DNA of 60,811 nt from contig JASGUU010000031.1 in the NCBI GenBank assembly GCA_030057555.1, forward strand, positions 1 through 60,811, read 5' to 3'. Under the pieces are notes generated by a model. It made no database searches. It saw nothing but the letters and a program-made list of their open reading frames with translations, and was not told where the DNA came from. Every line of letters starts with the position of its first letter. Position 1 is the stretch's first letter. This DNA is from Bacillota bacterium (GTDB taxonomy: Bacteria > Bacillota > Clostridia > Saccharofermentanales > Fastidiosipilaceae). Below, piece after piece: positions 16,767 through 60,811 of the stretch. Both the position numbers and the translations under genes were made by a program.

Positions 16767-16943
16767 CTTATACACATTTTTGCTTGCACAGGTTGTTTCT
16801 ATTGCATGTCCGGCACCCCTGGGATGAGACGGCAGGAATTAGATAACCTGTCTGAAACCACAACATGGACCGCACACCAGAAAGCGGTTGATCATGCCAG
16901 GAGCACGGCTGGCAGGGAGAGAAAAGCAGCTGGTGGACTTCTG

Positions 16944-17143
16944 GTGGTCAAAACGAAGAGAAATCCAATAAATGATTTGGATTTCTCGCGATCCTGACCA
17001 CAAAAAGACCGTTTCTGGTCAAAACGAGGAGTTTTCCAAAAAATGATTTGGATTACTCGCGATCCTGACCACAAAAGGGCCGTTTCTGGTCAAAACGAAG
17101 AGTTTTCCAAAAGACGATTTGGATTTCTCGCTATCCTGACCAC
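16944..17143 (+). repeat. Tandem hairpin array A (three units, 71-bp period)
   Basis: Units at 16944-17001, 17016-17072 and 17087-17143. Each has outer arms (G)TGGTCA/TGACCA(C) and inner arms such as GAGAAATCC/GGATTTCTC around an A-rich loop, separated by 14-base spacers ending GTTTC. Preceded by a leader (about 16898-16943) conserved before the arrays at 27.2 and 36.0 kb. Family 1. Confidence 0.9.
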
Positions 17144-17155
17144 AAAGAAGGGCGC

Positions 17156-27103: not shown

Positions 27104-27750
27104 GCACGTCAAGAATGTCGGGAAGCGGGTAAGCAGGCCAGGAGGACGGCTGGCCAGGGGAGAAAAGCAGCCGACGGACTTCTGGTGGTCAAAACGAAGA
27201 GAAATCCAAAAAACGATTTGGATTTCTCCCTATCTTGACCACGAAGGAGCTGTTTCTGGTCAAAACGAGGAGTTTTCCAAAAAATGATTTGGATTACTCA
27301 CCATCCTGACCACGAAGGGGCTGTTTCTGGTCAAAACGAAGAGTTTTCCAAAAAATGATTTGGATTACTCGCCATCCTGACCACAAAGGGGCTGTTTCTG
27401 GTCAAAACGAAGAGTTTTCCAAAAAATGATTTGGATTACTCGCTATCTTGACCACGAAGAAGGGAGCAGCGCTGCTTGTCGGGATCTCCTTAATCATACT
27501 TCTTCCGAACAAGAGAACCTGGATCGCTTCACCATCTCCTGGAACGTGCCGTGTCTGTCATCCTCGCTGCCCGCTATCCTGTCGCATGCCATTCACATTC
27601 CGACAGTTCGTGAGGCTGATCGCTATGCAGACAATGGTAGACGTGAACTTCCTTATGCTTGAGTACAAGCTGCGCTGAAACCCCGGTGTTTCCGGTGTTT
27701 GAGGAATGGCCCGGAAAAGACTTTACTCGTCCCGACAGATATGACGTGCA
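27104..27750 (+). mobile_element. MITE-like module B with internal hairpin array
   Basis: Bounded by inverted ends: GCACGTCA-N4-TGTCGGGA (27104-27123) and its near-complement TCCCGACA-N4-TGACGTGC (27730-27749). Internal order: conserved leader, four-unit hairpin array, and a trailer of about 295 bp that is clearly homologous to the trailer of module C (CTGGATCGCTTCAC..., GCCCGCTATC..., CCATTCACATTCCG..., GTTTGAGGAA). No coding capacity. Confidence 0.75.
27185..27455 (+). repeat. Tandem hairpin array B (four units, 71-bp period)
   Basis: Units at 27185-27242, 27257-27313, 27328-27384 and 27399-27455. The first has a perfect 12-bp inner stem (GAGAAATCCAAA/TTTGGATTTCTC). The other three carry GAGTTTTCC on the left and GGATTACTC on the right, leaving two mismatches. 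Confidence 0.9.
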
Positions 27751-27822
27751 CCCGGTGGGACACTGGCCTTTGCGACGAAAAGGGGTGGAATGGAGCCCTC
27801 CGCCGACAGCTGCAGGAGCACT

Positions 27823-32909: not shown

Positions 32910-33962
32910 ATGTACGAAATCCTGCAGTTTGCTCCACAATACAAGGACTATCTCTGGGGCGGCCGCCGCCTCGCCGGCTTCGGGAAGGAGCTGCCACCCG
33001 ACGGCCCCGTCGCCGAGAGCTGGGAGCTCTCCTGCCAGCCGAACGGGCTTTCGATTGTTGAGGGTGGCCGTTATGACGGGCAGCGCCTCGACCAGCTGCT
33101 GCTGTCGGACAGAAGCGGGTGGATGGGGACGGACTTCGCGGAGAGCGAGAATTTCCCTCTCCTCGTCAAGTTCATCGATGCAGAAAAAGATCTCTCCGTT
33201 CAGGTGCACCCTGACGACGAGGCCGCCCGCCGCCTCGAGGATGTCCCCTATGGCAAAAACGAGATCTGGTATGTCGTCCACGCTCCCGGGGATGCCACCC
33301 TGGTCGCGGGCCTGAAGCCCGGCACCACACCTGATCAGCTCGCCGCCGCGATTGCCGCCGGCCGCTGCGAGGACCTTCTCGCCCGCATCCCGGTCAAGGC
33401 CGGTGATGTCATCAACATTCCGGCGGGTCTCGTCCACGCGATTACGGCGGGCCTTATCGTCTACGAAGTGCAACAGAGCTCGGACACCACCTATCGACTC
33501 TACGACTACAACCGTCGTGGCGCCGACGGCAGGCTGCGCCCCCTCCATGTCGAGAAGGGGCTCGAGGTCATCGACTTTGCGCCCGGCGATGCGCCGCTGC
33601 GTTTTGACGGCCTGCCGAACGCGGTGCCGAGCCTCAGCGGCGACGTCAGCAGCCGTCTGCTGGTGCTAAACCGCTACATCAGCTTCGCAGAGATCGATCT
33701 CGCGGGCGAGGCCACCTGGCAGGCCGATCCGCGCCGCTTTCGCATCCTGACCTGCCTGACCGGAAGCGTCACCCTGAACGGGAACGTGACGGTCGGACGC
33801 GGGCGCACGGTCTATCTGCCGGCGGCGCTGCCCGGGCTGACGCTGTCCGGTGAGGGGCGCCTGCTGGTCACCTGGCCGGGGGATCCGGAGCTGCGCGAAG
33901 AGCTGATGGAGTCGGTCGGCTGCGAGACACTCGCCGCCGCCACCGCACTCGACCCCGCCTAG
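32910..33962 (+). CDS. manA: Mannose-6-phosphate isomerase, class I
   Basis: Interconverts mannose-6-phosphate and fructose-6-phosphate. The 350-residue protein has DYLWGGRRLAGFGK at the N terminus, the zinc motif VQVHPDDEAARRLE, GKNEIWYVV, and the second metal-site segment NIPAGLVHAI, with the cupin C-terminal region completing the fold. Two adjacent ATGs exist (32907, 32910); AGGAG at 32898-32902 gives better spacing to 32910. With the GH38 mannosidase elsewhere in the window it would allow mannose use. Confidence 0.92.
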   Translation: MYEILQFAPQYKDYLWGGRRLAGFGKELPPDGPVAESWELSCQPNGLSIVEGGRYDGQRLDQLLLSDRSGWMGTDFAESENFPLLVKFIDAEKDLSVQVHPDDEAARRLEDVPYGKNEIWYVVHAPGDATLVAGLKPGTTPDQLAAAIAAGRCEDLLARIPVKAGDVINIPAGLVHAITAGLIVYEVQQSSDTTYRLYDYNRRGADGRLRPLHVEKGLEVIDFAPGDAPLRFDGLPNAVPSLSGDVSSRLLVLNRYISFAEIDLAGEATWQADPRRFRILTCLTGSVTLNGNVTVGRGRTVYLPAALPGLTLSGEGRLLVTWPGDPELREELMESVGCETLAAATALDPA

Positions 33963-34511
33963 CACGGAACTTGCCGAACAGGAAACAGGGAGACGGCCAG
34001 AACGCCTGATACACGTGTGTTTCAGCCGTTCTTCCTGCCGCCTGTCAGCTGCCCACTTCATCCGCCCCCTGCCGGTGTCGCACCACGAGTATTGCTGTTG
34101 TAGGGCCGGGACACTGATGCCGGGCTGTGCCTCATGCTTACGGCAGCCCTTCGGGACCTCGTCGGAACAGGGGAAAGAACGCTTTTCGTCCCGGCTGCAT
34201 TATGCAGTGCACCCAGCAACCTGGCTTGTGAGTGCTTTCGCTGCGCAGAACTTGATTTCATGAACACAATTCGCTGCGGGTGGTGGTTTTTTGAAATGCG
34301 TACACGTTCCCTGTCAAGAACACGAAATACCTTTGTCAGGTGTCCGGGCTTTCAAGCAGCTTGGCATCAGTTACGGCATAGCCTTCCACGGGTAAAGAAC
34401 AAGCAATTGCAGATAGAAGCATAAGTGCAGCGCGTACAGCTGCACATGCTATCCTCATTTCAACGCCTCAACAGGTGTACGTTATAGGATGCTGGGGAGA
34501 AGGTAAAACCA
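33963..34511. other. Intergenic interval with no supported gene
   Basis: About 550 bases of moderate GC with short frames lacking ribosome binding sites or recognisable content. No RNA gene identified. Confidence 0.4.
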
Positions 34512-35038
34512 TGTCAAAGAACCCGTCCCACTGACAAGCTATAAAGCTTTATAGAAACTCACCGCAGCGGCGATCTCTTCCTCATCTGGATGTCCCCTGG
34601 CAATCCCTCCGACCAGCTTAAACGGGCCAAACGTGTCAAAGCCAAGGCAATGGTAGCTGCCTAGTTCCCGGCAGTTCTTCTTTTCCGCAATCTCACGGAT
34701 ACCTTTCAGGAAGCTGCCGACTGGTGCGCCATGGGTATAGATATAGAATACATCTTTATTTTTCGGCAAATGAGCATCAGCGAAAGACAGAATCTGCCTG
34801 GCGAAGCTGTTGAAGTAAATGCCGGAGGCGAAACCGATACGGTCGTAGAATGACAGGTCAACATCCGGATTCTCTGTGACATCAAATAAAGTCACAGAGC
34901 TGTCTATACTCGCAATCGCATCGAGCAGTTTCTTTGTGTTCCCGTGGTGCTGAGAATAATACACAATGGCAGTGGTCACTATCGCATACCTCGACATCTA
35001 CCGATTTACTTCATGTCAAGATGACGGGTTCTTTGACA
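34512..35038. mobile_element. Inverted-repeat cassette carrying a flavodoxin gene
   Basis: TGTCAAAGAACCCGTC at 34512-34527 is exactly repeated in inverse at 35023-35038, and TGACA recurs a few bases further in on both sides. The 527-bp segment contains only the flavodoxin-like gene. The ends resemble insertion-sequence termini, but no transposase is inside, so this looks like a non-autonomous element. No target-site duplication is visible. Confidence 0.7.
34539..34979 (-). CDS. Flavodoxin-like protein
   Basis: A 146-residue flavodoxin fold protein, expected to bind FMN and carry electrons. The phosphate loop YYSQHHGNTKKL follows the first strand at the N terminus. GFASGIYFNSFARQIL and YIYTHGAPVGSF match the second FMN-binding loop of flavodoxin-like (FldA/NrdI-like) proteins. 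GTG 34979 is preferred because GAGGT precedes it and the family usually begins directly at this strand. ATG 34997 would add six residues. The gene is AT-richer than its neighbours and lies between perfect inverted repeats, which suggests transfer. Confidence 0.8.
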   Translation of the reverse strand: MTTAIVYYSQHHGNTKKLLDAIASIDSSVTLFDVTENPDVDLSFYDRIGFASGIYFNSFARQILSFADAHLPKNKDVFYIYTHGAPVGSFLKGIREIAEKKNCRELGSYHCLGFDTFGPFKLVGGIARGHPDEEEIAAAVSFYKAL

Positions 35039-35354
35039 CGTCTCCTTCACATGAGGAGACTGCACGCTTCTTGACAGTTCCACATATCAAACATGTCAGT
35101 TAATATTATAGTCCTGTCATCGAAAGCTGAGGGGACATGAAAACACGGAGAGCACTGGAACGCCGCTCTTTCCGGGTTTTATGTGAAGCCAGGATATGTT
35201 GTATGTGACTTGTGATTGAAGAGATCGGATCTTTTATTGTGCTCCCCGGGTCGATTATTTAGGGTCCAGTCTCAGGCTGTAGATTCCGTTCAGGGCTGTA
35301 CAGATATCACTCCCCGTGCAGGCCGCCCGCCTCAGACCGGAGAAGCTTCCCCCG

Positions 35355-35552
35355 ATGCCGGTTACGAACCGGATTTGGGACGAAATCGCCTTTGCCCGAC
35401 TGGCGGATGAACATATTCACTGGGATTCCAGGCAGTGGAATAGCAGCCCTGGCGCTTTGGTTCATGCGCTGATCCTCTCGGCCACGACAGATAATGGCAG
35501 GAGGCGCACCCGGGCGGGAAGCGGATGGCCGGCTGGAACAGCAAGGCTCTGA
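35355..35552 (+). pseudogene. Transposase N-terminal fragment (IS1634/DUF4277-like)
   Basis: The frame reads MPVTNRIWDEIAFARLADEH, then IHWDSRQWNSSPGALVHALI. This resembles the N-terminal DUF4277 domain of IS1634-family transposases (D-x-x-QW-x-x-SPG-x-x-x-x-AL). It breaks off before the DDE domain, so it is a relic. Confidence 0.45.
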
Positions 35553-35767
35553 TAAATTCTGCCCATCACCAGTTATGCGACAAAAGCAAGGGTATCTATC
35601 TGGAGAAGATGGGATACGGAAAGCTATGACATCCATGGCATGGATGATCCTGATTACAGGAAAGCACTTATCCTTCTGGATCTCCTCAAACTCGACTATA
35701 TAAAGCTCATGGAGCATCTGTGGACCATGCATGGTGTTGCCATCAGGGAGTCATCTGCCCCTTTTAG
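35526..35767 (+). pseudogene. Frameshifted coding remnant, unidentified
   Basis: Two overlapping frames look protein-like. One reads MAGWNSKALINSAHHQLCDK and ends in a stop at about 35629. The other reads ESYDIHGMDDPDYRKALILL, continuing to LMEHLWTMHGVAIRES. A single frameshift near 35620 would join them. No family recognised; it may be the tail of the preceding transposase. Confidence 0.3.
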
Positions 35768-35907
35768 ACGACAGCGATGAAATGGAGCTGCGCCCAAAAG
35801 CAGGCATACATGACCAAAGCCGGAAATAACAGCTTCAGTGGATCATCTATATGCAGGGAATTTGAAAGTTCGCCGCCCCCAGCGGATGCATGTTACTTCG
35901 ACAAAAT

Positions 35908-36444
35908 GGGGGTGCACGTCAGGAGTGTCGGGAAGTGGCTGAGCATGCCAGGAGGACGGCTGGCAGGGGGAGAAAGCAGCCTGCGGACTTCTGGTGGTCA
36001 ATACGAAGAGTAATCCAAAAAAAGATTTGGATTACTCGCTATCTTGACCACAAAAGGCCGATTCTGGTCAAAACGAAGAGTAATCCAAAAAACCATTTGG
36101 ATTACTCGTCATCCTGACCACAAGGAAGGGGCGCGCAGGCCGCAGCACGGCGCACTGTCTGTCGGTATCGCCTTTATCACACGACATCAGAGCAACAGCA
36201 TCTGGATCGCTTCACAATCTCTCTGGGAGTGCCAGGTCGTGCCTGTCAGCCTTGCCGCCCGCTATCTTATTCCTATGTCCCATTCACATTCCGGCTGTTT
36301 GTGAGGCTGGCCGCTGCGCAGGCAATTGGAGAAGGGATTTTCCCTGCGCCTGCATGTAAGCCGCGCTGAAACTCCGGTGCTCCCGGTGTTTGAGGAAAGC
36401 TCAAAAAGGTTTTACTCGTCCTGACAAATTTGACGTGCACCCCC
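35908..36444 (+). mobile_element. MITE-like module C with internal hairpin array
   Basis: 537 bp bounded by inverted ends. The left end has GGGGGTGCACGTCA-N4-TGTCGGGA (35908-35933). The right end has TCCTGACA-N4-TGACGTGCACCCCC (36419-36444). Internally it has the conserved leader, two hairpins, and a trailer homologous to module B. The two additional 71-bp units in B explain most of the length difference. Confidence 0.8.
35994..36121 (+). repeat. Tandem hairpin array C (two units)
   Basis: Units at 35994-36051 and 36065-36121. Both have perfect 12-bp inner stems GAGTAATCCAAA/TTTGGATTACTC. Relative to the perfect unit of array B, one base pair is swapped (A-T to T-A) in both arms. Confidence 0.9.
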
Positions 36445-36923
36445 AAAATGGAACCTAAATGAACGACAGGGTGCCGGATGTACATCTTGTTCAATGTAAT
36501 GGAACTTCTAGATCGGGACTTTTAGATCCACAGAATGCCGGACATGTATTCATGCCATAGTGATAAATTACGGTTTCACGAACACCGCCCTGTTTCTGGG
36601 TATTTTGGACGCCATGCTCGTATTCCATCGCGCTTTTCCTGTCACAGCCCTCCAAAATCATTGATGATAGAGAAGGGGAGGTAATTCAGTGCCTTGATGG
36701 TTTAAAAAAGAGGCACGTTGTCCGGCATTCACAAACCCATCAGCGTGTACAGGGTGTAGCTCAGAGAAAAGAAGAGTGACGGTCGATTGAGTTTTCTCAT
36801 AGTTTGATCGAGCCATTTTTGCCCACTGGTCTCTGTGCAGCCGGCAGCGCAGCATCAGCACCCGACGGAAGCAGACAGGCCATCTGGAATGTCAGTCAAC
36901 CCGCCGGGTTCCGGCCGGCGCTT

Positions 36924-37964
36924 CTAGCGCTCCGCCAGCCGGCGGCGCCGCCGCGTCAGGCGGATGTCCTCGCCGCTGATGTCGAGCAGCTGGAAGGCGC
37001 CGATGAGGCGTGACGAGACGCGCTCGTCGTAGACCTGGCGGACGTCGCCGAGGGCCAGATTGCTCGAGATCACGAGCGGGCGCCCGGCCGCAAGACGCTG
37101 ATTCAACAGGCCGAGGAGTTCGGTCAGACGCGTCGCCGGAGGGACATTCTCGGTGCCCAGATCGTCGAGGATCAGGCAGTCGACGCTCTCGATGCGCTGC
37201 TGCATGTCTTCGGCGAGCGCCAGCCGCAGCGGGTCGGGGCCGAAGCTCGTCGTCAGGCGGCGCAGCCGGGCCAGATGCTGGTGCCAGTCGGGCGCCGTCA
37301 GATAGAGCACCCCATAGCCGCGCTCGAGCAGACGGCGGCCGATGGCCTGGGCGAACCAGGTTTTACCGGTGCCGGTCGGCCCGCTGAGATAGACGTGGGT
37401 GGGATCGTTCGCCGGGAAGGCGTTGCACCAGCCGAGGAGATAGTCGCGCTGCCACTCGCGCTCGTCGCGGACGGAGGGCAGCGGACTGCCGTCGGGGGCG
37501 CTGCGGGGACGGGCGCTGAAAAGCGCGGCATCGAAGCTCGCAAAGCCGGCCTCGGCGTCTGCGGGCAGGCCGGACTGTGCGCGCAGCCAGGGACCGGCAA
37601 CCTCGGGGTAGCAGGCGCAGAAGCTGTCGCCGTCGTAGCCGGTGTCACCGCAACGGGGACAGAGCGGTACGGTGGCGTCGTAGCCCGCCGGGTCCGTGCC
37701 GAGGGCCGCGAGCAGGCGGCGGCGCTCCCCGCGCAGACTGTCCAGCTCGTCCTCGGCGCGTCTGCGGGCATCCGGGGAGAGATCGAGGGCCTCGAGCCGC
37801 GCGATCGCGGCGGCGGTCACGCGGCGTTCGAGAGCGGCCAGCTCCGGATGGGCCGCCTCGAGAGCACGGCGGCGGGCATGGCTCGCGGCCTCGGCGGCCT
37901 GGCGGCGGCCCGCGTACAGGGCGCGGACGTGCTCGGGCATCTCGCGCCGGTTATCTGCAGGCAT
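36924..37964 (-). CDS. DnaC/DnaI-like helicase loader ATPase
   Basis: A 346-residue AAA+ protein predicted to load the replicative helicase. A coiled-coil-rich N terminus (about 1-95) is followed by a zinc-binding loop, CPRCGDTGYDGDSFCAC (about 101-117), as in DnaI. The ATPase domain has Walker A GPTGTGKTW (near 195), Walker B CLILDDLG, a sensor segment LVISSNL, and the arginine-finger region ERVSSRLIGAF. ATG overlaps the upstream DnaD-like stop by one base (TGATG). The two genes form the primosomal pair typical of Firmicutes. Confidence 0.9.
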   Translation of the reverse strand: MPADNRREMPEHVRALYAGRRQAAEAASHARRRALEAAHPELAALERRVTAAAIARLEALDLSPDARRRAEDELDSLRGERRRLLAALGTDPAGYDATVPLCPRCGDTGYDGDSFCACYPEVAGPWLRAQSGLPADAEAGFASFDAALFSARPRSAPDGSPLPSVRDEREWQRDYLLGWCNAFPANDPTHVYLSGPTGTGKTWFAQAIGRRLLERGYGVLYLTAPDWHQHLARLRRLTTSFGPDPLRLALAEDMQQRIESVDCLILDDLGTENVPPATRLTELLGLLNQRLAAGRPLVISSNLALGDVRQVYDERVSSRLIGAFQLLDISGEDIRLTRRRRRLAER

Positions 37965-39046
37965 CAGGTCTCCCCTCTCCTCTCCTTTTCTTCCTTCTCC
38001 TCGCTGCGCCGCAGTTCGCCGAGACGCATCGGGTCGGCATAAAAGTCGCGCAGGAATTCATCGGAGTAGCTGCGCTGGTCAAAGTTCGCCGCCACGTTGC
38101 CGCCCGCACGACGGTCGGCAGGCTGCGGCCGGGTGGTGGGGCTTTGCGTGCGTGAACTCTGACGCGATGAACGCAGCTGCTGTTCGCGCTCCTTCTCGTA
38201 GGCCTCGATGGCCTCCACCGACTCGAGACCGGCCTCGTGCCACTCGCGCAGCAGGCGGTCGAAGAAGGGGAAGCTCGGGCTGCGCAGCTTGACGACCCGC
38301 TCGAGGGCGAGTTCGATGATGTCCTCGTCGAAGCCGAATTCGTTCAGCCAGCGGTCGACAAAGGGGCGATGGTACTCCGTCGTGTCGATGCGCAGGCGGC
38401 GGCCGATGCGCTTGAGCAGCTGGGCCTCGCGCTCGTGGCGGGCGAGATGGCGGTTCATGTCCTCGTAGCTGACGACGCCGTTCTGGTGCCAGTCGCGGCC
38501 GACCGCCTGCACATAGCCGACGCGGAGCTTGTTGAGGTCGCGGCAGAGGTTGAAAAGGACATAGATGACCTGGGGCTCGAAGCGGTACTCGCTGTAGAAG
38601 ACCTCGAGGACATCGAACCATTTGATGCCCATCATGCCGGAGAAGAAGCGGTTGTTGATGTCCTCGCTGAGGCGGCGGTAGCCCTCATCGTGCTCGTAGT
38701 GATCCATCAGGTCATCCTGGCGCGAGCCGGTGCGGGGACGGAAGAGCTTCAGGACCTGCTGGTCCTTGATATCGACCAGAGTCAGATAGGGCTGGCCCTG
38801 AACGTAGTTGATCAGGCCGGCGTTGGTGAGTTCGATGAGAACGGCGGCAAAGGCGTCGTCGTCGAGGCGCAGCATGCGCAGCAGACTGGCGGGTTCGACG
38901 CGCTCCTCCCCCTCCTGTGTCAGCAGGCTCAGGGTCAGATAGGCGCGGACGGCATCGAGTGACAGGTCCGGCAGATAATCGGTGACAAAGACCGCCGGCA
39001 GATGCAGGTCACTGTACAGTCGTCTGCGCAGGGCCCGGATCTCCAT
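37964..39046 (-). CDS. DnaD/DnaB-like replication initiation protein
   Basis: A 360-residue protein. The N-terminal winged-helix region (about 20-100) contains LSLDAVRAYLTLSLL and ASLLRMLRLDDDAFAAVLIEL. One DnaB_2/DnaD C-terminal domain carries LEVFYSEYRFEPQVIYVLFNLC, and a second related segment holds NEFGFDEDIIELALERVVK. The basic, disordered tail ends DPMRLGELRRSEEKEEK. It probably remodels DNA at the origin and hands the helicase over from the coupled DnaI-like loader. AAGGAGG precedes the start. Confidence 0.87.
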   Translation of the reverse strand: MEIRALRRRLYSDLHLPAVFVTDYLPDLSLDAVRAYLTLSLLTQEGEERVEPASLLRMLRLDDDAFAAVLIELTNAGLINYVQGQPYLTLVDIKDQQVLKLFRPRTGSRQDDLMDHYEHDEGYRRLSEDINNRFFSGMMGIKWFDVLEVFYSEYRFEPQVIYVLFNLCRDLNKLRVGYVQAVGRDWHQNGVVSYEDMNRHLARHEREAQLLKRIGRRLRIDTTEYHRPFVDRWLNEFGFDEDIIELALERVVKLRSPSFPFFDRLLREWHEAGLESVEAIEAYEKEREQQLRSSRQSSRTQSPTTRPQPADRRAGGNVAANFDQRSYSDEFLRDFYADPMRLGELRRSEEKEEKERRGET

Positions 39047-39088
39047 GCTGGCGCTACCTCCTTCTTTGGCTTTGCTGCGAGAACAAGC

Positions 39089-39189
39089 GAGGCTCCTGCC
39101 GCTCGCGCGTGTTCACGGCAGGAACCTCTCTCATCATACTGGATCAGGTCACGGCCGGCCGCTGCGGGCGTATGCCGCCCGGGCCGGCC
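39089..39189. other. Two stem-loops between nifJ and the dnaD-like gene
   Basis: Stem 1: GAGGCTCCTGCCG (39089-39101) with CGGCAGGAACCTC (39116-39128), 12 of 13 pairs. Stem 2: GGCCGGCC arms at 39153-39160 and 39182-39189 with further inner GC pairing. Neither has a T run. They lie just downstream of the dnaD promoter side, or could stabilise transcript ends. Confidence 0.4.
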
Positions 39190-39206
39190 GGACAGGGTTC
39201 ATCGGA

Positions 39207-42200
39207 TCAGGACCAGTCCTCGGCTGCCTTCCGCTCGTAGGTCTTGTAGCGGTAGAGAGCGTCGGCCTCGGCCCGGGTGAAGATCTCGTCGACCTTCTCG
39301 GGCGAATACTTGCGGGCCAGCGAGCTGTAGCGGACCTCGCTCTTCAGGAAGGCCTTGAAGTCGCCGGTGGGCTCCTTCGAGTCGAGCTGGAAGGGGTTCT
39401 TGCCCTGGTCGGCGAGGCGCGGGTCAAAGCGATAGAGGTGCCAGTAGCCGCACTCCACGGCTTCCTTCTCGCGCTGGATGCCGAGGCGCAGGCCGCCGCG
39501 GATGCCGTGGTTGATGCAGGGCGCGTAGCAGATGACGAGCGAGGGGCCGTCATAGGCTTCCGCCTCCAGGAAGGCGCGCAGGGTCTGGGCCTGGCTCGCG
39601 CCGAGCGCGACCTGGGCCACATAGACATAGCCGTAGGACATCGCCATCATGCCGAGGTCCTTCTTCCGCATGGCCTTGCCGCCGGCGGCGAACTGTGCGA
39701 TGGCGCCGGTCTGGGTCGCCTTCGACGCCTGGCCGCCGGTGTTCGAGTAAACTTCGGTGTCCATGACCAGAACGTTGACGTTTTCGCCCGTGGCCAGCAC
39801 GTGGTCGAGGCCGCCGTAGCCGATGTCATAGGCCCAGCCGTCGCCGCCGATGATCCACTGCGAACGCTTCGAGAGATAGTCGCTGCCGGCCAGAATCTCG
39901 TCGACCAGCGCGCGCTCGGCGTCGGACTTTGCCTCGTAGTTCTGAAGGGCGTTGACGAGTCCGGTCGAAACCTCGAGGGTGCGCTCGCCGTCGTCGCGGC
40001 CGTCCTTCCAGGCGTCGATCGCCTGCGAAAGCGTCTCACAGCCGACGTCAAGCCTGTCGACGCGGTCGATCATGCGGTCGCGCAGCTGCTTGTAGCCGAG
40101 GTACATGCCGAGGCCGTTCTCCGCGTTGTCCTCGAAGAGCGAGTTCGCCCAGGAGGGGCCGCGGCCTTCGGCGTTCGTGGTATAGGGGTTCGTGGGAGCC
40201 GAGCCGCCCCAGATCGAGGTGCAGCCGGTGGCGTTGGAAATCATCATGCGGTCGCCGAAGAGCTGCGTCACCAGCTTGATGTAGGGGGTCTCTCCGCAGC
40301 CGCCGCAGGCGCCCGAGAACTCGAGCAGGGGCTGCTCGAACTGCGAGCCCTTCACCATGTTCTTCCGCATCGGGTTGGGCTTCAGCGGCAGCGCGCGGAT
40401 GTAGTCCCAGGTCGCGGCCTGATCCATGTTGTCGGCGAGCGGCTTCATGACCAGAGCCTTGGTCTTCGCCGGGCAGGTCTCCACACAGGAAGCGCAGCCG
40501 GTGCAGTCGAGCACCGAAACCTGAATGCGGAACTTGAGATCCTGATAGGGGCGCATGCCGTTGAGGACTTCCGTGCCGGCGGGCGCGGCGGCGACTTCCT
40601 CCTCGGTCAGCAGGAAGGGACGGATGACCGCGTGCGGGCAGACGAGCGAGCACTGGTTGCACTGGATGCAGTTTTCAGGGATCCAGACGGGCACGTTGAC
40701 CGCGATGCCGCGCTTCTCATACTGCGAGGTGCCGACGGGGAAGGTGCCGTCAGCGGCGTCGGCAAAGGCGGAAACCGGCAGCTGATCGCCGCGCTGGGCG
40801 TTCATGACGTCCGCGATATCCTCGACGAAGACCGGCACATCGCGCACGACGGGCGCGCTGTCGGGTGCGTCGGCCCAGTCGGCCGGGATTTCGATTTCGA
40901 TGACATTCTCGAGGCCGGCGTCGACGGCGGCGTAGTTCATCCTGACGACTTCTTCGCCGCGGCGGCCATAGCTGTCTACGATCGCCTGCTTCATGTAGGT
41001 GACGGCATCGTCAACCGGGAGTACCTTCGCGAGCTTGAAGAAGGCCGACTGCAGCACCGTGTTGGTGCGGTGGCCCAGGCCGATGTCGGCGGCGATGCCG
41101 ACGGCGTCGACGGTGTAGAGCCTGATGTTCTTGGCGGCCAGCTGGCGCTTCATGGCACCGGGCAGATGCTCGCTGAGCTCGTCAACGTTCCAGGCCGTGT
41201 TCAGCAGGAAGGTGCCGCCGGGCTTGAGCGATGTCACCATGTCGTAGCGCTCGACATAGGACTGCTGCGAGCAGGAGACGAAGTCCGCCTGGTTGATGAG
41301 ATAGGTGGAGCGGATCGGCTCATTGCCGAAGCGCAGATCGGAGATCGTGATGCCGCCGGACTTCTTCGAGTCGTAGGAGAAGTAGGCCTGGGCATACATG
41401 TCGGTGTGGTCGCCTATGATCTTGATCGAGTTCTTGTTCGCGCCGACGGTGCCGTCGGAGCCGAGGCCCCAGAAGCGGCAGGCGATCGTGCCCTCGCTCG
41501 CGACGCCGGTGAAGTCCTCCGACGGCAGAGAGAGATGGGTGACATCGTCGACGATGCCGATCGTGAAGTTGTGGCGCGGTTCGTCAGCGGCGAGGTTTTT
41601 AAAGACGGCAAAGATCTGGTCCGGCGTGGTGTCCTTCGAGCCGAGACCGTAGCGGCCGCCGACGATGAGCGGGGCATTCTCCTGGCCGGCGAAGGCGGCG
41701 ACAACGTCGAGATAGAGCGGCTCGCCGTGGGCGCCCGGCTCCTTCGTGCGGTCGAGGACCGCGATGCGCTTCGCCGTCTCCGGCACGGCCGCGAGCAGGT
41801 GCTTCACCGAGAAGGGGCGATAGAGGTGGACATTGACCAGGCCGACCTTCTCACCGCGGGCGTTGAGGTTGTCAACCACTTCCTCAATCGCGCCGACGGC
41901 GGAGCCCATGGCAACGATGACGCGGTCGGCATCCGGCGCGCCGTAGTAGTTGAAGAGCTGATAGTTGCGTCCGAGCAGGTCGTTGATCTGCTTCATGTAG
42001 TCTTCGACGATCTCCGGAACGGCGAGGTAGTAGGGGTTCGAGGCCTCGCGCGCCTGGAAGAAAATATCCGGGTTCTGAGCCGTACCACGCTGCGACGGGT
42101 GGTTCGGCGACAGGGCGCGCGCGCGGAAGGCCGCCAGGGCGTCCTGGTCGATAAGAGCGGTCAGATCCTCGTAGGCCGGCACTTCGACCTTCTGGATCTC

Positions 42201-42740
42201 ATGCGAGGTACGGAAGCCGTCGAAGAAGTGCAGGAAGGGAACACGGGCGCGAATCGCCGACAGATGCGCGACGGCGGCCATGTCAACAGTCTCCTGGACG
42301 CTGGCTGCGCTCAGCAGGGCAAAGCCCGTCTGGCGGCAGGCCATCACGTCCGAGTGGTCGCCGAAGATCGACAGCGCGTGGCTGGCCAGCGCGCGTGCCG
42401 AGACGTGGAAGACGCCCGGAAGCAGTTCGCCGGCGATCTTATACATATTCGGGATCATCAGCAGCAGGCCCTGCGAAGCGGTATAGGTCGTCGTCAGAGC
42501 ACCGCTGTTCAGTGATCCGTGCACGGCGCCCGCAGCGCCGCCCTCGGACTGCATCTCCACCACGTTGACGGTCTGGCCAAAGCCGTTCAGACGGCCCTGT
42601 GTCGCCCAGATGTCCACATGGTCAGCCATCGGAGAGGACGGGGTGATCGGATAGATGCCCGCAACCTCCGTAAAGGCATACGACGTATACGCCGCGGCCT
42701 CATTGCCATCCATAGTCATAAAGGTGGTTTTTTTGCCCAT
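39207..42740 (-). CDS. nifJ: Pyruvate:ferredoxin (flavodoxin) oxidoreductase
   Basis: A single-chain 1177-residue enzyme that oxidises pyruvate to acetyl-CoA and CO2, reducing ferredoxin. Domain order is canonical: AYTSYAFTEVAGIYPITPSSPMA (domain I), the gamma-type domain with GLGSDGTVGANKNSIKI, two 4Fe-4S motifs CIQCNQCSLVCPHA (near 693) and CTGCASCVETCPAK (near 747), a proximal cluster loop CGGCGETPY, and the TPP-binding segment DTEVYSNTGGQASKAT (near 995). AAGGAG precedes ATG 42740. It signals a fermentative anaerobe. Confidence 0.97.
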   Translation of the reverse strand: MGKKTTFMTMDGNEAAAYTSYAFTEVAGIYPITPSSPMADHVDIWATQGRLNGFGQTVNVVEMQSEGGAAGAVHGSLNSGALTTTYTASQGLLLMIPNMYKIAGELLPGVFHVSARALASHALSIFGDHSDVMACRQTGFALLSAASVQETVDMAAVAHLSAIRARVPFLHFFDGFRTSHEIQKVEVPAYEDLTALIDQDALAAFRARALSPNHPSQRGTAQNPDIFFQAREASNPYYLAVPEIVEDYMKQINDLLGRNYQLFNYYGAPDADRVIVAMGSAVGAIEEVVDNLNARGEKVGLVNVHLYRPFSVKHLLAAVPETAKRIAVLDRTKEPGAHGEPLYLDVVAAFAGQENAPLIVGGRYGLGSKDTTPDQIFAVFKNLAADEPRHNFTIGIVDDVTHLSLPSEDFTGVASEGTIACRFWGLGSDGTVGANKNSIKIIGDHTDMYAQAYFSYDSKKSGGITISDLRFGNEPIRSTYLINQADFVSCSQQSYVERYDMVTSLKPGGTFLLNTAWNVDELSEHLPGAMKRQLAAKNIRLYTVDAVGIAADIGLGHRTNTVLQSAFFKLAKVLPVDDAVTYMKQAIVDSYGRRGEEVVRMNYAAVDAGLENVIEIEIPADWADAPDSAPVVRDVPVFVEDIADVMNAQRGDQLPVSAFADAADGTFPVGTSQYEKRGIAVNVPVWIPENCIQCNQCSLVCPHAVIRPFLLTEEEVAAAPAGTEVLNGMRPYQDLKFRIQVSVLDCTGCASCVETCPAKTKALVMKPLADNMDQAATWDYIRALPLKPNPMRKNMVKGSQFEQPLLEFSGACGGCGETPYIKLVTQLFGDRMMISNATGCTSIWGGSAPTNPYTTNAEGRGPSWANSLFEDNAENGLGMYLGYKQLRDRMIDRVDRLDVGCETLSQAIDAWKDGRDDGERTLEVSTGLVNALQNYEAKSDAERALVDEILAGSDYLSKRSQWIIGGDGWAYDIGYGGLDHVLATGENVNVLVMDTEVYSNTGGQASKATQTGAIAQFAAGGKAMRKKDLGMMAMSYGYVYVAQVALGASQAQTLRAFLEAEAYDGPSLVICYAPCINHGIRGGLRLGIQREKEAVECGYWHLYRFDPRLADQGKNPFQLDSKEPTGDFKAFLKSEVRYSSLARKYSPEKVDEIFTRAEADALYRYKTYERKAAEDWS

Positions 42741-42854
42741 ACTGCGCTCCTTGTTTCCTTGATACTTTGTTGTTTTTGCGCTGATTCCGGCATTTGAGCC
42801 AATGACAGCGCAGGCGCGGCCGTGTCCGCCGCTACGCATACAGAACCACCAAGA

Positions 42855-42883
42855 AGTATAGCACAGGGCCTTTAAACCTGTAA
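42855..42883 (-). promoter_or_regulatory. nifJ promoter
   Basis: Minus-strand -35 TTACAG (42878-42883), 17-bp spacer and -10 TATACT (42855-42860) preceded by TGC (extended -10). It leaves a leader of about 105 bases before the ATG. Confidence 0.65.
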
Positions 42884-43261
42884 CAAATGTTCCTATTCAG
42901 ACCACGGCTGCAGAGTTTATCGACAGGCTGGCCGCTTCGAACCCCTCCGCCTGTCCAGGAATGTCAGTCAGTGCAGTTCACCCACCAGACGGCGAAAGCT
43001 CTGAGCATATCCGCTTCCCGGGAGTGCAAAAACTACACTCTGGACAGCCACAGCCCGATCCGAATCAGCCATAACCGTCCAGAGCGAAAATTTAGCTCAT
43101 CCCAGGACCACGACTGATCAGAAGTACGATCTGTGCACCTCTGACGCGGACCAGGAGGAAATGCACAGGCTATATTCGTTATTGCTTTCTCACTCAGGCT
43201 CGCGCGCAGTCGAACCCCGCTCTCAAATGTAGCTGCCGAGTCGCAGATGTAGCTGTCGAGC
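42884..43261. other. Non-coding interval beside a decayed gene
   Basis: No gene supported. A short tandem motif (ATGTAGCTG(C/T)CGAG twice, 43229-43262) lies near the decayed oxidoreductase. Confidence 0.4.
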
Positions 43262-47377: not shown

Positions 47378-48433
47378 TCAGCGGCTCCAGAAGCGGCCGG
47401 CGTCGATGTAGCCGGGCAGGAAGGCGCTGACGTCGCGGTCGAAGTCGGGATAGTCGTAGCCGGCGAGGCCGGCGACCTGGCGCGAGACCGCGCGGAAGGC
47501 ATCGAGCACGGAGACGAAGGCCTCGTAGACGGCGGCGGGGCTGCCGAGAGCGCCGGTCCGCCAGACGAGGTCGCGGTCCCCGGGCGGAAGGAGGCGGAAG
47601 AGATGGGTGTGGGCTTTGCCTGGATTGAAACTCTCTCCCCGCTCCAGCAGGACACGCCAGGTCAGCTGGCGCAGCAGCTCCGCCCGCAGCACATTCGCGA
47701 TCAGATCGGCGGCGTACCACCAGTCGGAACGGGCGAGCCCCTTCGCGACATAGACGGTCACCCACCAGAATTCGTTGCAGGAATCGCGCCAGCTCCGGGC
47801 CGTCGGCGGCAGAGCGAGGTAATCGCCGTCGTGCGGGGTGGGCGGGTCGGCGATAAGGCCGTCCTTGTCCACGAGGAGCGCCGTCAGACTGTCGCCGCCG
47901 AGGCCGGCCGCCGCACGCGCCGCCACCCCGCCAGCACCATCGCGGAGCAGATCGTAGATGGTCAGATCGACGCGCTGCCCGTTGGCGAACTGCAGCAGCC
48001 AGGCAAAGCGGCCGGCAGGCGCGGCTTCGAAAAGCGCCGAGGCATCGGGCGTCTGCCAGATAACGCGCGGCCCGAAGCGATCAATCCAGCCGCAGTTGTC
48101 GGGATCCGCGAGAGCCGCGAAATCCGTGACGCCGTAGACGGTGTCGAAATCCATCCAGGCATCGTGGCGCGCCGCCGGATCCACACGCGAGCCGTTCAGC
48201 CAGACGAGGCGCACGCGCTCATCCGCCGCGGCGAAATCAAGCAGGGTATCAAAGAGCGTCAGGGCAGCGAGCGCCCGCCCCGGCGCAACAGCCGGCCGGC
48301 TCCCAGCGGCATCGGCGGCCGTCGCCTCGCGGATGCGCCGGACCCAGCCGGTCTCGCCCGGCCGCGCGGCACGCCCCGCGAGACGAGCCGTGATCTGCTC
48401 CGTTATGCCGGGTGCGGGCGCCGGACCCGGCAC
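47378..48433 (-). CDS. Aminoglycoside 6-adenylyltransferase-like nucleotidyltransferase
   Basis: A 351-residue protein of the ANT(6)/AadE family (Adenyl_transf). It contains WLNGSRVDPAARHDAWMDFDTVYGV, the family's GSR plus DxD nucleotide/metal motif, then VDLTIYDLLRDG and SCNEFWWVTVYVAKGLAR, with GKAHTHLFRLLPPGDRD at the C-terminal part. The start is uncertain: GTG 48433 is the first usable codon after the mannosidase stop. Its GC matches neighbouring core genes, so it looks native rather than recently acquired. Streptomycin modification is possible but unproven. Confidence 0.82.
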   Translation of the reverse strand: MPGPAPAPGITEQITARLAGRAARPGETGWVRRIREATAADAAGSRPAVAPGRALAALTLFDTLLDFAAADERVRLVWLNGSRVDPAARHDAWMDFDTVYGVTDFAALADPDNCGWIDRFGPRVIWQTPDASALFEAAPAGRFAWLLQFANGQRVDLTIYDLLRDGAGGVAARAAAGLGGDSLTALLVDKDGLIADPPTPHDGDYLALPPTARSWRDSCNEFWWVTVYVAKGLARSDWWYAADLIANVLRAELLRQLTWRVLLERGESFNPGKAHTHLFRLLPPGDRDLVWRTGALGSPAAVYEAFVSVLDAFRAVSRQVAGLAGYDYPDFDRDVSAFLPGYIDAGRFWSR

Positions 48434-48458
48434 CGGGACCCGTTTTGCATCACCTCGC

Positions 48459-51400
48459 TCAGGCAAAGTCCACCAGGAAGCTGCGGATCTGCCAGGGCCT
48501 GAAGTCGGCCCGGAAGCCACCCGCGCCCGACCCGTCGTCGTCCGGCAGCGGAACGATCTCCTCCCCGTCCGCTTCCTCGAGCAGGTTGCAGGGCGTGACA
48601 CTCACGAGCGGACACGCGAACGTGAATTCCGCCTCCGCACGACGGCCGTGGCTCTCGTAGGCGCGCAGCAGCCAGCGCTGCGGGTCGCTGTCGGCGCGCT
48701 TGAAAACCTCGATGCGCACACTGTCGTCGCTGCCGAGCAGCCAGTTCGCAGGCAGTCCGCCGACCACCGCCGCGGCCTCCCCGCCACCGCAGACCGCGAG
48801 GGCATAGGGCGGGCGGTTCAGGTCGTTCGCGCGCTGGACGGTGCCGGCCTCCTGCCAGCTGCCCGCGTGGGCATAGAGCGAATAGGTGAAGTGATGGCGC
48901 TCCTGATCGGCGGTCGGGTTCGGCATGGTCCCCGACTTCAGCAGCGTCAGGCCGACCTCGCCGTCACGGACGTGGCAGCCGTACTTGGCGTCGTTGAGGA
49001 AACTCACACCATAGCCATATTCCGCCACATCGAGCCACTTATGCATGACGACCTCGAAGCGCGCCTGGTCCCAGCTGGTATTCTCGGAAATCGGCCGCGT
49101 CACGGCGCCGTACTGGATCTCGTAGGTGGCGTGGGTGGCGACGATATCCAGCGGGAAGAGGGCCTTCAGCAGCAGACGCTCGTTGCGCCAGTCGATCTGC
49201 GTGTCGAAGTCGACCTGCCCCCTGCGGTGCTTCGCGAGGCGGACACGCTGCACGATCAGGGAATCGAGGCAGGGACGGCTGATCTCGACGGTCTTGAACA
49301 GCGGTCCATCCTCGACCAGACGGAAATGCGCGACCTCGTCGACGGGCCAGAACTTCTCACGGTAGAAGGAGCTGATCTCCCAGTTCTCCCAGTTGCGCGG
49401 GCGGTCCTCGTAGATCACGAGACGGTTGCCGCGCTTCCCGGGCGGCAGGACTTCGCGCTTCGCATCCTTGTCCCAGATGGAATCCAGCTCGCCGTTGGCC
49501 GCAAACACCAGGCGCAGGCTCTCATTCTCGAGCACATAGCCGTCGGGATCAACGGCGTCATAATGCTGTGCTGCAAAGCCCGCGCCCAGCTCCGCTCCCA
49601 CCGGCGCCGGCTCCTCCGGATCCGCGATGACACCCTCGACCGTGTAGGCCGTGAGGCCGATGCCGTCCGCATCCGCCACGAAGACGGTGCGGCCGTCGGC
49701 GGTCTCCTGCACGGGCAGCTGCCGGCCCTGCTCATCCCGCACGCCGCTCACCAGCGCGAAGTTCTCCGGCAGTCGGACCTCCATCGAGCCCCGCGTCTCC
49801 GTGGGATTGAAGACGATGACATGCTCCTGGCAGAGGCCATACTGCGCGGCGAGGGCACCAAGGCGCCCGGCGATGCCGCGCTCGATCAACGCCTCCAGCC
49901 GCTCGTACTCGGCGCGGCTGTCCTCATAGACCTCATGGATCGAGGAGCCGGGCAGGATGTCGTGGAACTGGTTGCGCAACAGGATCTCCCAGCCTTCGGC
50001 GAGCTCGTCGGCCGGCCAGGCGGCGCCCGTCTCAAGGGCGGCGATGGAGGCCAGCATCTCCAGCGCCAGCAGGCCGTACTCGCCCGAGCGGTTGGACTTT
50101 TTGTTGCGCGCCATCGAGGTGTAGGTGCCGCGGTGCAGCTCGAGGTAGAGCTCGCCGCGCCAGTGCGGCAGCTGCGGGGAATCGGCCACAGCCGCCTCGA
50201 GCTTCTCGAAGAAGTCGAGCGAGGTCGACGGCTTCACCACCGGAGCGCCGGGAATGCCGCGCTCGAAACGCTTCAGGTTCTCCAGCATCTCAACTGTCGG
50301 ACCGCCGCCGCCGTCGCCGTAGCCGTAGGTCATCAGGACGAAGTCGTTGAGGTCCTTCTGCTGGTAGCGCTGCCAGGCGCCGAGCACATGCGACGGACCC
50401 AGCTCGGCGTTATAGGTTGTGAACCAGGCAGGCTTCCCGCACGGCTGGATGTACTCGCGCGAGGGGCTGAAGTGCGTCAGCACGGTGGAGCCGTCGATGC
50501 CCTCCCAGGTGAAGGTATCCATCGGCAGCTGGTTGGTCTCGTTCCACGAGATCTTCGTGGTCATGAAGTAGGGGATGCCTGCACCACGCAAAATCTGCGG
50601 CAGGGCGGCCGAATAGCCGAAGACATCGGGCAGCCAGAGGATGCGCGGGCGGCGGCCGAAGCGCTCCTCGAAGTAGGCGATGCCCGTCGTCACCTGGCGG
50701 ACCAGGGCCTCGCCGGAAGCGAGGTTGCAGTCGGGCTCGACGAACATCGCGCCCTCGGGCTCCCAGCGGCCTTCCGCAACGCGCGCCTCGATCTCGGGCA
50801 GCAGCTGCGGGGCGAAGCGCTCGATGAAGCGGTAGAGCTGCGGCTGCGAGGACATGAAGATGAAGTCCGGGTAGTGGCACATCAGTTCAAGCATGCCTGA
50901 GAAGGAGCGCACGGTCTTGTCCGCTGTGATGTCGAGCGTCCAGAGCCAGGCGATGTCAATATGGGTATGGCCGACAGCGTAGATGGTGGGCTTGCGCTCG
51001 GTGCTGCAGAGGTCCTGATAGAAGCTGCGCTCGAGCCAGGCGCGGGCCTCGCGGATCGAGGCGCGCGAGGCGGCGGAGCCGGCCCGGCGCAGGTCGACGC
51101 GGTTGATGCAGTCATTCAGGGTGCGCAGGATGAGGCCGCGGTTGTCATCGGATTCGGGCAGCAACCCGGCGACGCCCAGCGGCACGCTGAGGTCGTACCA
51201 GAAGGCCTCCGTCTCGCGGTCGATGGTCACCAGCGAGCCCTCGAGGACGAGCCGTCCGGCATAGTTCGCGGTATAGGCCTCGAGACGGACGCGGTAGCTC
51301 TCGCCCTCCACCGCGGCGTCACTCAGGCGGATCGCGCGGTGGTTGACATCGAAACCCATGCGCAGCTCGCCGTTGACATAGACCGCGAACTGCGGATTGT

Positions 51401-58989: not shown

Positions 58990-60811
58990 GTAGACAGGTC
59001 AGCTTCTTCTTCAAGAAGCTGCCTGCCCCCCACAGAACCCGGCGTGCGGTTTTCCCGCACCGGGCTCTTCAAGGCGTCTTTGGTTGCTAATACCAGATGT
59101 TTACCGTGATCCTCGGTCGTGGCACGTACGATTGCCAGATCTTGTTGTACTTCTCCCACGTCAGTTTACTGCGCTGGCTGCGACGTCTTAGCATGCGATA
59201 CGTGGTCCAATATACGTAGTTCCAGAACTTCTGGAGACTCTTGAAATTGCCATTCACACCATAGTAATTGCCATGTCCACGTAGTACACTTGCGATCCAT
59301 TTCATCGTCTCGGCTATGGGCTGATGTCTCTTCTTTTTCAGCCGTCCCTTTACATCCTGTCGCTTTGCCTTCAGCTTCTTCTGACTCGTACGTACTCCCA
59401 GGCGCCGCCTGCCGCTCCGGCTCTTCGTGTTATAGAACGTAAAGCCCAGAAAATCGAACGACTCCCGGGTACCTGTCCGTCTGCCCATCGGCAGAAGACG
59501 GGTCTTCTCCTCGGCCACTTCCAGTCCGCCTTTGCTCAGCTGCGTTTTCATGGCTTCCATGACCGCGCGGGCTTCGTCTTCGTACTGGAACATCATCAGA
59601 TAGTCGTCTGCGTACCTTACGTAATAGGCTTCACCCTTCAGGCGAGGCCGTACCCGGTCCTCAAACCACATATCCAGCAGATAATGGAGATAGACATTCG
59701 CGAGGATCGGAGAGATCAGTCCACCTTGTGGGGTTCCCCGTTCGCTCTCGAGCATTTTGCCTTCCTCCATCACCCCGGCTTTCAGAAACCGTACGATGTA
59801 GCGGAGAAAATTCTTGTCGGCTATATCGTGAGACAGGCACATCATCAGCTTTTCATGATCTACATTGTCAAAGAAGCCTTTGATATCTGCTTCCACTACA
59901 TAGTTCACTTGGCTTCTTTGTATTCGCTCGTTCACGTACCGCACCACCTGATGGGCACTGCGTCCCGGCCTGTACCCGTAGGAACAGTTCCGGAATCTCG
60001 GCTCGTAGACCTCCGTCAGAAGATCCGCCATGACACTCTGTACCAGCTTATCCTCATAAGCCGGGATGCCCAGCGGGCGCAGGCGTCCATCCGTCTTCGG
60101 GATGTATGCGCGCCTCACGCTCTGCGGCCGGTAGCGGAATGTCTTCATGCGTTCCCATAGATCGCATAGATTTCTCCCCAGCTCCCTACCGTATTCTTCC
60201 TTCGTAACGCCATCGATGCCTGAGGCCTTTCCGGACGGCTGCTTCGCATGGGCCTGCATCAGGGCTTCCCTGTCCACCAGATGCATCAGGTTCTCCACCT
60301 TGCGTCGGTTCCTCGACTGCCACCTTATTCCCCTTGTTTCGCTTTCCATATGTCTCCGCCTCCTGTACGGCATATGTTTCCACTCAGGGAACGACTCCTT
60401 GCAGGCCCCTTCGCTCCATCTGCTTTCACAGACTTCAGCACTACTATGAGCCTGTCCGACTTCTGAACGTCCATCAGCATCTCTCCATCTTTCTGGGACT
60501 TCAATCTCCCTTACCCGATGCGTGTCCACATCAGGAGACGTCCAGACCTCCCAGGTATGCAAGGGCGACCTTGCGTACTCGCCACGCTCTCAGACCCCGG
60601 TGGAACCTGCTACAGCCTTGCTCCTCTGTGCGGCTGTGCATTGCTGCCTGCGACCTTTGGCACGGTATCGGCTTCCACTCAATAAATTTACGAGGCTCAA
60701 TCGCTTCACGCTTTCGCATTGCGGCTCTTACGCTCCATTGCCTACGCTTAAACCCGTCCTCGCGGACTAAGGCTCCAAGGCTATGTACCGGCTGGGCGCT
60801 ACCCCTTTACC
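58990..60811 (-). mobile_element. Group II intron, 5' part beyond the window
   Basis: Minus-strand ribozyme plus encoded reverse transcriptase. Domain V is a 33-base hairpin at 59035-59067 beginning GAGCCCGGTGCGGG and ending CGCACGCCGGGTTC. Domain VI follows: AGCTTCTT/AAGAAGCT stem with a bulged A (58999), and the intron should end in CTAC at about 58990. The 5' GUGYG end is not seen, so the intron continues past 60811. The 3' exon resembles a family 1 hairpin half. Confidence 0.85.
59087..60349 (-). CDS. ltrA: Group II intron reverse transcriptase/maturase
   Basis: A 420-residue intron-encoded protein. Reverse transcriptase blocks in order: SGKASGIDGVT, RRAYIPKTDGRLRPLGIP, FRNCSYGYRPGRSAHQ, EADIKGFFDNVDH, GTPQGGLISPILAN (near 205), YVRYADDYLM (catalytic YADD near 246) and FDFLGFTFYN. 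The maturase domain (about 330-400) includes VNGNFKSLQKFWNYVYW. No HNH endonuclease motif follows, so this is an endonuclease-minus protein. AGGAGG before ATG 60349 selects that start over an ATG 71 codons upstream. Reading frame intact. Confidence 0.95.
   Translation of the reverse strand: MESETRGIRWQSRNRRKVENLMHLVDREALMQAHAKQPSGKASGIDGVTKEEYGRELGRNLCDLWERMKTFRYRPQSVRRAYIPKTDGRLRPLGIPAYEDKLVQSVMADLLTEVYEPRFRNCSYGYRPGRSAHQVVRYVNERIQRSQVNYVVEADIKGFFDNVDHEKLMMCLSHDIADKNFLRYIVRFLKAGVMEEGKMLESERGTPQGGLISPILANVYLHYLLDMWFEDRVRPRLKGEAYYVRYADDYLMMFQYEDEARAVMEAMKTQLSKGGLEVAEEKTRLLPMGRRTGTRESFDFLGFTFYNTKSRSGRRRLGVRTSQKKLKAKRQDVKGRLKKKRHQPIAETMKWIASVLRGHGNYYGVNGNFKSLQKFWNYVYWTTYRMLRRRSQRSKLTWEKYNKIWQSYVPRPRITVNIWY

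Follow-up and report, generated by a model that had tools for sequence, protein, structure and literature searches.

The 60,811-nucleotide stretch of DNA analysed here (contig JASGUU010000031.1 of a Bacillota bacterium, positions 1 to 60,811; hereafter the window) carries a flavodoxin-like gene between exact inverted repeats, which raises the question of whether the gene came as the passenger of an insertion-sequence-derived cassette, as a sequence-only reading had proposed, and where the ends of such a cassette would lie. The 16-bp repeat described in that reading was found at the same positions and is exact in both arms, and the TGACA noted further in does recur, at +21 of each arm.

34512–34527, plus strand: inner left arm, TGTCAAAGAACCCGTC (exact sequence match)
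34532–34536, minus strand: TGACA, lying at +21 relative to the inner left arm (motif scan)
34539–34997, minus strand: flavodoxin-like gene, intact 152-codon frame (PF12724, E 2.8e-9)
34979, minus strand: likely GTG start of the gene (146 aa), GAGGT upstream (alignment of relatives)
35014–35018, plus strand: TGTCA, lying at +21 relative to the inner right arm and mirroring the site at 34532
35023–35038, minus strand: inner right arm, exact inverse of 34512–34527

The gene is, as had been claimed, the only content of this interval: no other frame of at least 80 codons lies within 34512–35038, and the frame is intact and AT-richer, with a GC of 0.484 against 0.628. In an alignment with 14 relatives the usual start falls at residue 7, where most of the aligned relatives begin. 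None of the NCBIfam models for the protein scored above its cut-off, and a profile of the flavodoxin alignment searched against solved structures matched one chain, flavodoxin 8g64 (E 0.00029). The GC3 of the gene, 0.559, falls between the 1st and the 5th percentile (median 0.749, 5th percentile 0.604) of 199 stop-to-stop frames of at least 400 codons, a reference taken in any frame and thus with wrong frames included. On the minus strand, the leader of the gene (34960–35130) folds better than most of its shuffled versions (z -2.33; 3 of 200 as good), using several TGTCA/TGACA arms.

The gene is present in single copy in its own assembly (G000; 2.9 Mb, 90 contigs, 96% complete). Matches at E ≤0.001 were obtained in 8 of the 58 genomes searched, own genome included, the best one elsewhere in the order showing 39% identity, and none was found in the 11 other genomes of the family, congener G001 included (four of the 11 are less than 90% complete). 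A collection of 84,980 species yielded 54 loci with relatives, the best about 73% identical, whose hosts are mostly Clostridia of the rumen and gut. Neither a viral relative of the protein nor matching plasmid or phage DNA was found. The absence from the family genomes searched, the relatives in rumen and gut Clostridia and the low GC3 therefore make a horizontal acquisition of the gene likely. In 45 of the 54 relative loci (L003–L047) exact inverted repeats within 300 bp of the gene reach 11 bp at most and the nested arrangement described below was not seen, and 22 of them (L003–L024) hold 0–4 TGTCA/TGACA sites against 0.1–3.9 expected; thus the repeats look peculiar to the locus at 34311–35077, and the motif cluster does not travel with the gene among its relatives. 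The sequence-only reading had named two observations that would count against it, the same repeats at many terminators and a flavodoxin gene and its flanks conserved without them at the same locus in relatives, and neither was made: the exact repeat does not occur elsewhere in the assembly, where its two copies are the two inner arms, and the family relatives searched lack the gene.

The inner pair is the longest exact inverted repeat of the window with arms 100–2000 bp apart. Since 13 of 100 Markov-1 simulated windows contained an exact inverted repeat of at least 16 bp at that spacing, its length by itself is weak-to-modest evidence across the whole window. When the local AT-rich block of 1144 bp was simulated, a 16-bp repeat with arms 300–1000 bp apart was obtained in 0 of 3000 cases (longest, 14 bp), and 395 kb of comparison DNA taken elsewhere in the assembly, from two contigs (C44 complete and C20 from 1 to 160000), held one exact 16-bp repeat at this spacing, of 88% GC. 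Each inner arm is, in addition, itself a 25-bp dyad, TGTCA-N15-TGACA. Given the local composition, the gene between the arms and a related outer pair of repeats, a chance origin is less likely.

This outer pair is a new observation, missing from the sequence-only reading. The sequence TGTCAAGAA occurs in the window at 34312–34320 and, inverted, at 35068–35076 only, and each copy can be extended outward by one base, giving the first two of the following features.

34311–34320, plus strand: outer left repeat, CTGTCAAGAA, TTCC directly before (motif scan)
35068–35077, minus strand: outer right repeat, TTCTTGACAG, TTCC directly after (motif scan)
34334–34338, plus strand: TGTCA, at a distance of 22 bp from the outer left site (motif scan)
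35094–35119, plus strand: two further TGTCA sites, 21 bp apart, beyond the outer right repeat

The outer pair shares with the inner repeat the core TGTCAA[A]GAA and the inward orientation, so far as the sequence goes giving each putative end two or more repeats in matching orientation. Some exact 9-bp pair appeared in 4138 of 20,000 simulated flanks, and a pair at most one edit away from the inner repeat in 22 of them. The interval 34312–35119 holds 12 TGTCA/TGACA sites, the densest 830-bp cluster among the 455 kb examined (the window, C44 and most of C20), with a runner-up of 9; in 3000 composition-matched simulations TGTCA peaked at 8, and the commonest 5-mer, whichever one it was, reached at least 12 in 10. 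Five neighbouring pairs of sites are spaced 20–22 bp apart. Two of the 12 sites fall beyond the outer right repeat, and for these a cassette offers no explanation. The TTCC outside both outer ends is a possible 4-bp target duplication, short and noticed post hoc, and nothing like it was seen flanking the inner pair. If a cassette exists, its better-supported ends are the outer repeats at 34311–35077 rather than 34512–35038.

We considered whether composition or the flanking DNA delimits a putative insertion. GC is low from about 34.2 kb through to about 35.3 kb and shows no step at the inner or the outer repeats; because AT-rich DNA continues beyond both repeat pairs, composition does not mark either of them as a boundary, and because the sampled contigs hold AT-rich runs of equal or greater length elsewhere, it decides little. 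The right neighbour lies outside the putative cassette:

35319–36481, plus strand: a copy of element A, a dispersed non-coding repeat that encloses element B (35907–36445)

This copy of element A is without the left part of about 123 bp that is present in nine other copies, and a search for the absent part to the left of the gene gave only chance-level matches. No empty site could be drawn from G001, the only congener, because its manA-side and dnaC-side contigs both stop inside this intergenic region.

Several features of the surroundings are recorded here in their own right. Dispersed non-coding repeats of the window lie at 35319–36481, 16805–17145 and 27104–27753; element A has inverted ends like ACGTCCGGCACCC, and element B has ends TGGGGGTGCACGTCA, with 1 to 5 tandem near-palindromic units of about 71 bp (GAGTAATCC../..GGATTACTC). 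Matches number 144 in the own assembly, window included, and 163 in the congener, the best being about 75% identical among the matches listed; 16 clusters were counted in 455 kb. Rfam gave no match at gathering score on 33900–37000 and one below it (E 0.16). A 12-bp inverted repeat, GAATGCCGGACA, at 36533–36544 and 36719–36730, about 200 bp across, is possibly another small repeat element. The congener has conserved DNA matching 36930–40524, and the 900 bp after manA in its intergenic region contain other repeated, hairpin-like sequence (contig C44, L177). In the own genome, TGTCACCGTATCTTTTGATCTGG recurs every ~220 bp in an AT-richer stretch at about 163476–164367 of C44 (L195), perhaps a repeat protein. 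A pyruvate:ferredoxin/flavodoxin oxidoreductase gene (39210–42896, minus strand; PF01855, PF01558 and others) lies about 4 kb from the flavodoxin gene, and a Streptomycin adenylyltransferase family protein (PF04439, E 3.7e-66) is encoded at 47381–48601, minus strand.

A cassette of this kind would need an enzyme acting on its ends, and the sequence-only reading had proposed a search of related genomes for the same ends around transposases. Among 188 genomes of the order the exact 16-mer occurs in the own genome only and in none of the 187 others. Allowing up to 3 mismatches, it is found at 40 places in the own genome, the two inner arms among them, whereas the reversed pattern is found at 19; this excess speaks against rejecting a dispersed repeat with these ends, a candidate otherwise unsupported, the 16-mer occurring only twice in the assembly. 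Of the 38 other places, 28 were fetched as loci (L057–L084), and an open frame of at least 250 codons runs over 27 of these sites, all except that of L075, long open frames being also expected by chance at this GC; four more of the 38, at the starts of contigs C75, C77, C79 and C86, lie in what we take to be IS66-like ends. A single inverted pair within 3 mismatches was present in the fetched loci, on C12 (24520 and 28941, 4.4 kb apart). We read it as coincidence in coding sequence, because each of its sites falls within a long open frame and the first belongs to a gene whose G001 homologue gives a near match; for this G001 match, a search of its 3-kb locus allowing 4 mismatches showed no inverted partner. 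With up to 3 mismatches allowed, the loci fetched from the own genome gave no autonomous insertion sequence sharing these ends. A search with an end pattern also returned no match, but the pattern misses the window's own outer site as well, so this result is uninformative.

A search for rve-type transposases in the 96% complete assembly identified two, which from reading the proteins we take to be one IS21-like (on C20) and one IS3-like. The two elements were rejected as partners, their ends differing by eye, so that no cognate IstA or TnsB was found among these hits. A Pfam scan of 40 of the 51 open frames picked in the window, all but 11 short ones, showed no recombinase, integrase or DDE transposase, the only mobile-element protein among them being a group II intron reverse transcriptase/maturase (59090–60589, minus strand; PF00078, PF08388). 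The IstB-like protein at 36927–38057 (PF01695, E 3.4e-12) was rejected as an IS21 remnant and is read as a helicase loader, because its neighbour is a DnaB_2/DnaD-like gene and both are conserved together in G001. A phage origin was likewise set aside, the 33 viral stretches with the 16-mer carrying it once each and never twice, and an integron cassette looks unlikely, since by eye no attC-like core was apparent.

Taken together, these observations are best read, tentatively and with a probability of about 0.4, as a transposase-less insertion of about 767 bp (34311–35077), resembling a mobile insertion cassette and containing a single flavodoxin-like gene of horizontal origin. What is directly observed is an intact gene that the family genomes searched lack, a cluster of motifs, and repeats that are nested and oriented as described. 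In this reading a transposase supplied in trans would bind the two or more inward TGTCAA(A)GAA copies of each end (outer at 34311 and 35077, inner at 34512 and 35038), cleavage would take place at the outer pair, and TTCC would be the duplicated target, so that the flavodoxin-like gene would have arrived by transposition and may now be stranded for want of its partner enzyme; the cassette is probably immobile at present. The support offered by one copy is circumstantial. Against a cassette stand this single copy, the failure to find a transposase with these ends among the rve-type ones of the own genome, the lack of an empty site and the lack of a step in composition. The insertion-sequence-derived cassette of the sequence-only reading is thus partly supported: the gene that looks like a newcomer and the nested repeats speak for it, whereas neither rve-type transposase of the genome has these ends and AT-rich DNA runs past the arms. 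A bolder version, which we regard as a long shot, would make the element a transposon reduced to its cargo, one electron carrier between multi-site ends like those of Tn7 or IS21, which depends for movement in trans on the enzyme of some other element or cell and has landed within 5 kb of the pyruvate:flavodoxin/ferredoxin oxidoreductase gene.

The gene could instead have come with a longer stretch of AT-rich DNA (about 34.15–35.32 kb) through recombination, homologous or illegitimate, the repeats being chance, a local hairpin or regulatory sequence, an explanation that we hold doubtful and still take seriously. It accommodates the AT-rich DNA that continues past the repeats on both sides, the 13 simulated windows in 100 with a repeat as long, the minus-strand leader that folds well on its TGTCA/TGACA arms and the truncation of the right-hand repeat at 35318/35319, which implies a rearrangement there. 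However, the local simulations (0 of 3000) and the related outer pair (22 of 20,000 flanks) argue against chance, leader hairpins leave the matching arm beyond the stop codon unexplained, and AT-rich runs as long or longer elsewhere take much of the weight from composition.

The readings that make the repeats functional sites in place are both improbable. In an invertible segment, a site-specific recombinase would act on the 16-bp arms and flip the gene relative to an outside promoter; the dyad structure of each arm would suit this, recombinase sites being often dyads, yet no recombinase turned up among the scanned frames, and the outer pair is neither needed nor explained. Slightly harder still to sustain is an operator array, in which the TGTCA/TGACA sites would bind a regulator of the flavodoxin gene: the five site pairs spaced near two helical turns are in its favour, but further sites follow the stop codon, the last about 230 bp beyond it, and no such cluster surrounds the 22 relatives. 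The odds among these readings did not change when the inverted pair on C12 and a wider Pfam scan were taken into account.

If the cassette is real, a metabolic (redox) gene would have spread among gut Clostridia by a cargo-only cassette, whereas those in the cited literature carry mostly resistance genes, and the nested end motif would be a searchable tag for similar cassettes and for the missing transposase.

Among known systems, invertons have arms of 10–40 nt in the excerpted text of PMC11892184, a range that includes the 16-bp arms described here, and are, like our locus, segments flanked by short inverted repeats that match exactly (PMC11892184). The locus differs from them in that a whole foreign gene lies inside and no recombinase is encoded among the scanned window frames. 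The ends of Tn7-like, Tn5053 and Tn552 elements are arrays of transposase-binding repeats of about 20 bp, as given in part of PMC8649781, and repeat arrays near the putative ends are found here too. Unlike these, the locus measures 767 bp in all and has no clean 5-bp duplication, and the only rve proteins found in its genome are the IS3-like and the IS21-like ones. IS21 family ends (L1/L2, R1/R2) carry at least two repeats each according to the portion of PMC11208146 available, as do the putative ends here. In contrast to IS21, no istA/istB is present, and the ends of the genome's own IS21-like element on C20, judged by eye, differ. IS21 termini are of the TG...CA type, which is another likeness. 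Because no cognate transposase was found, the locus cannot be assigned to IS21 or Tn7.

Mobile insertion cassettes are defined, in the section of PMC3913671 consulted, by inverted repeats around a segment without a transposase gene, and their partner transposase is sometimes unknown (PMC3913671); MIC231, mic-qnrD and mic-qnrS2 resemble our locus in holding one gene between inverted repeats and no transposase gene (PMC3913671). They differ in that the cargo here is a redox protein, the repeats are nested in two pairs, no related insertion sequence was found and the target duplication is uncertain. Judged by the features of this class, the interval 34311–35077 is bracketed by inverted repeats, carries a passenger gene without a transposase gene and has TTCC as candidate target duplication at both outer ends, the inner ends showing none.
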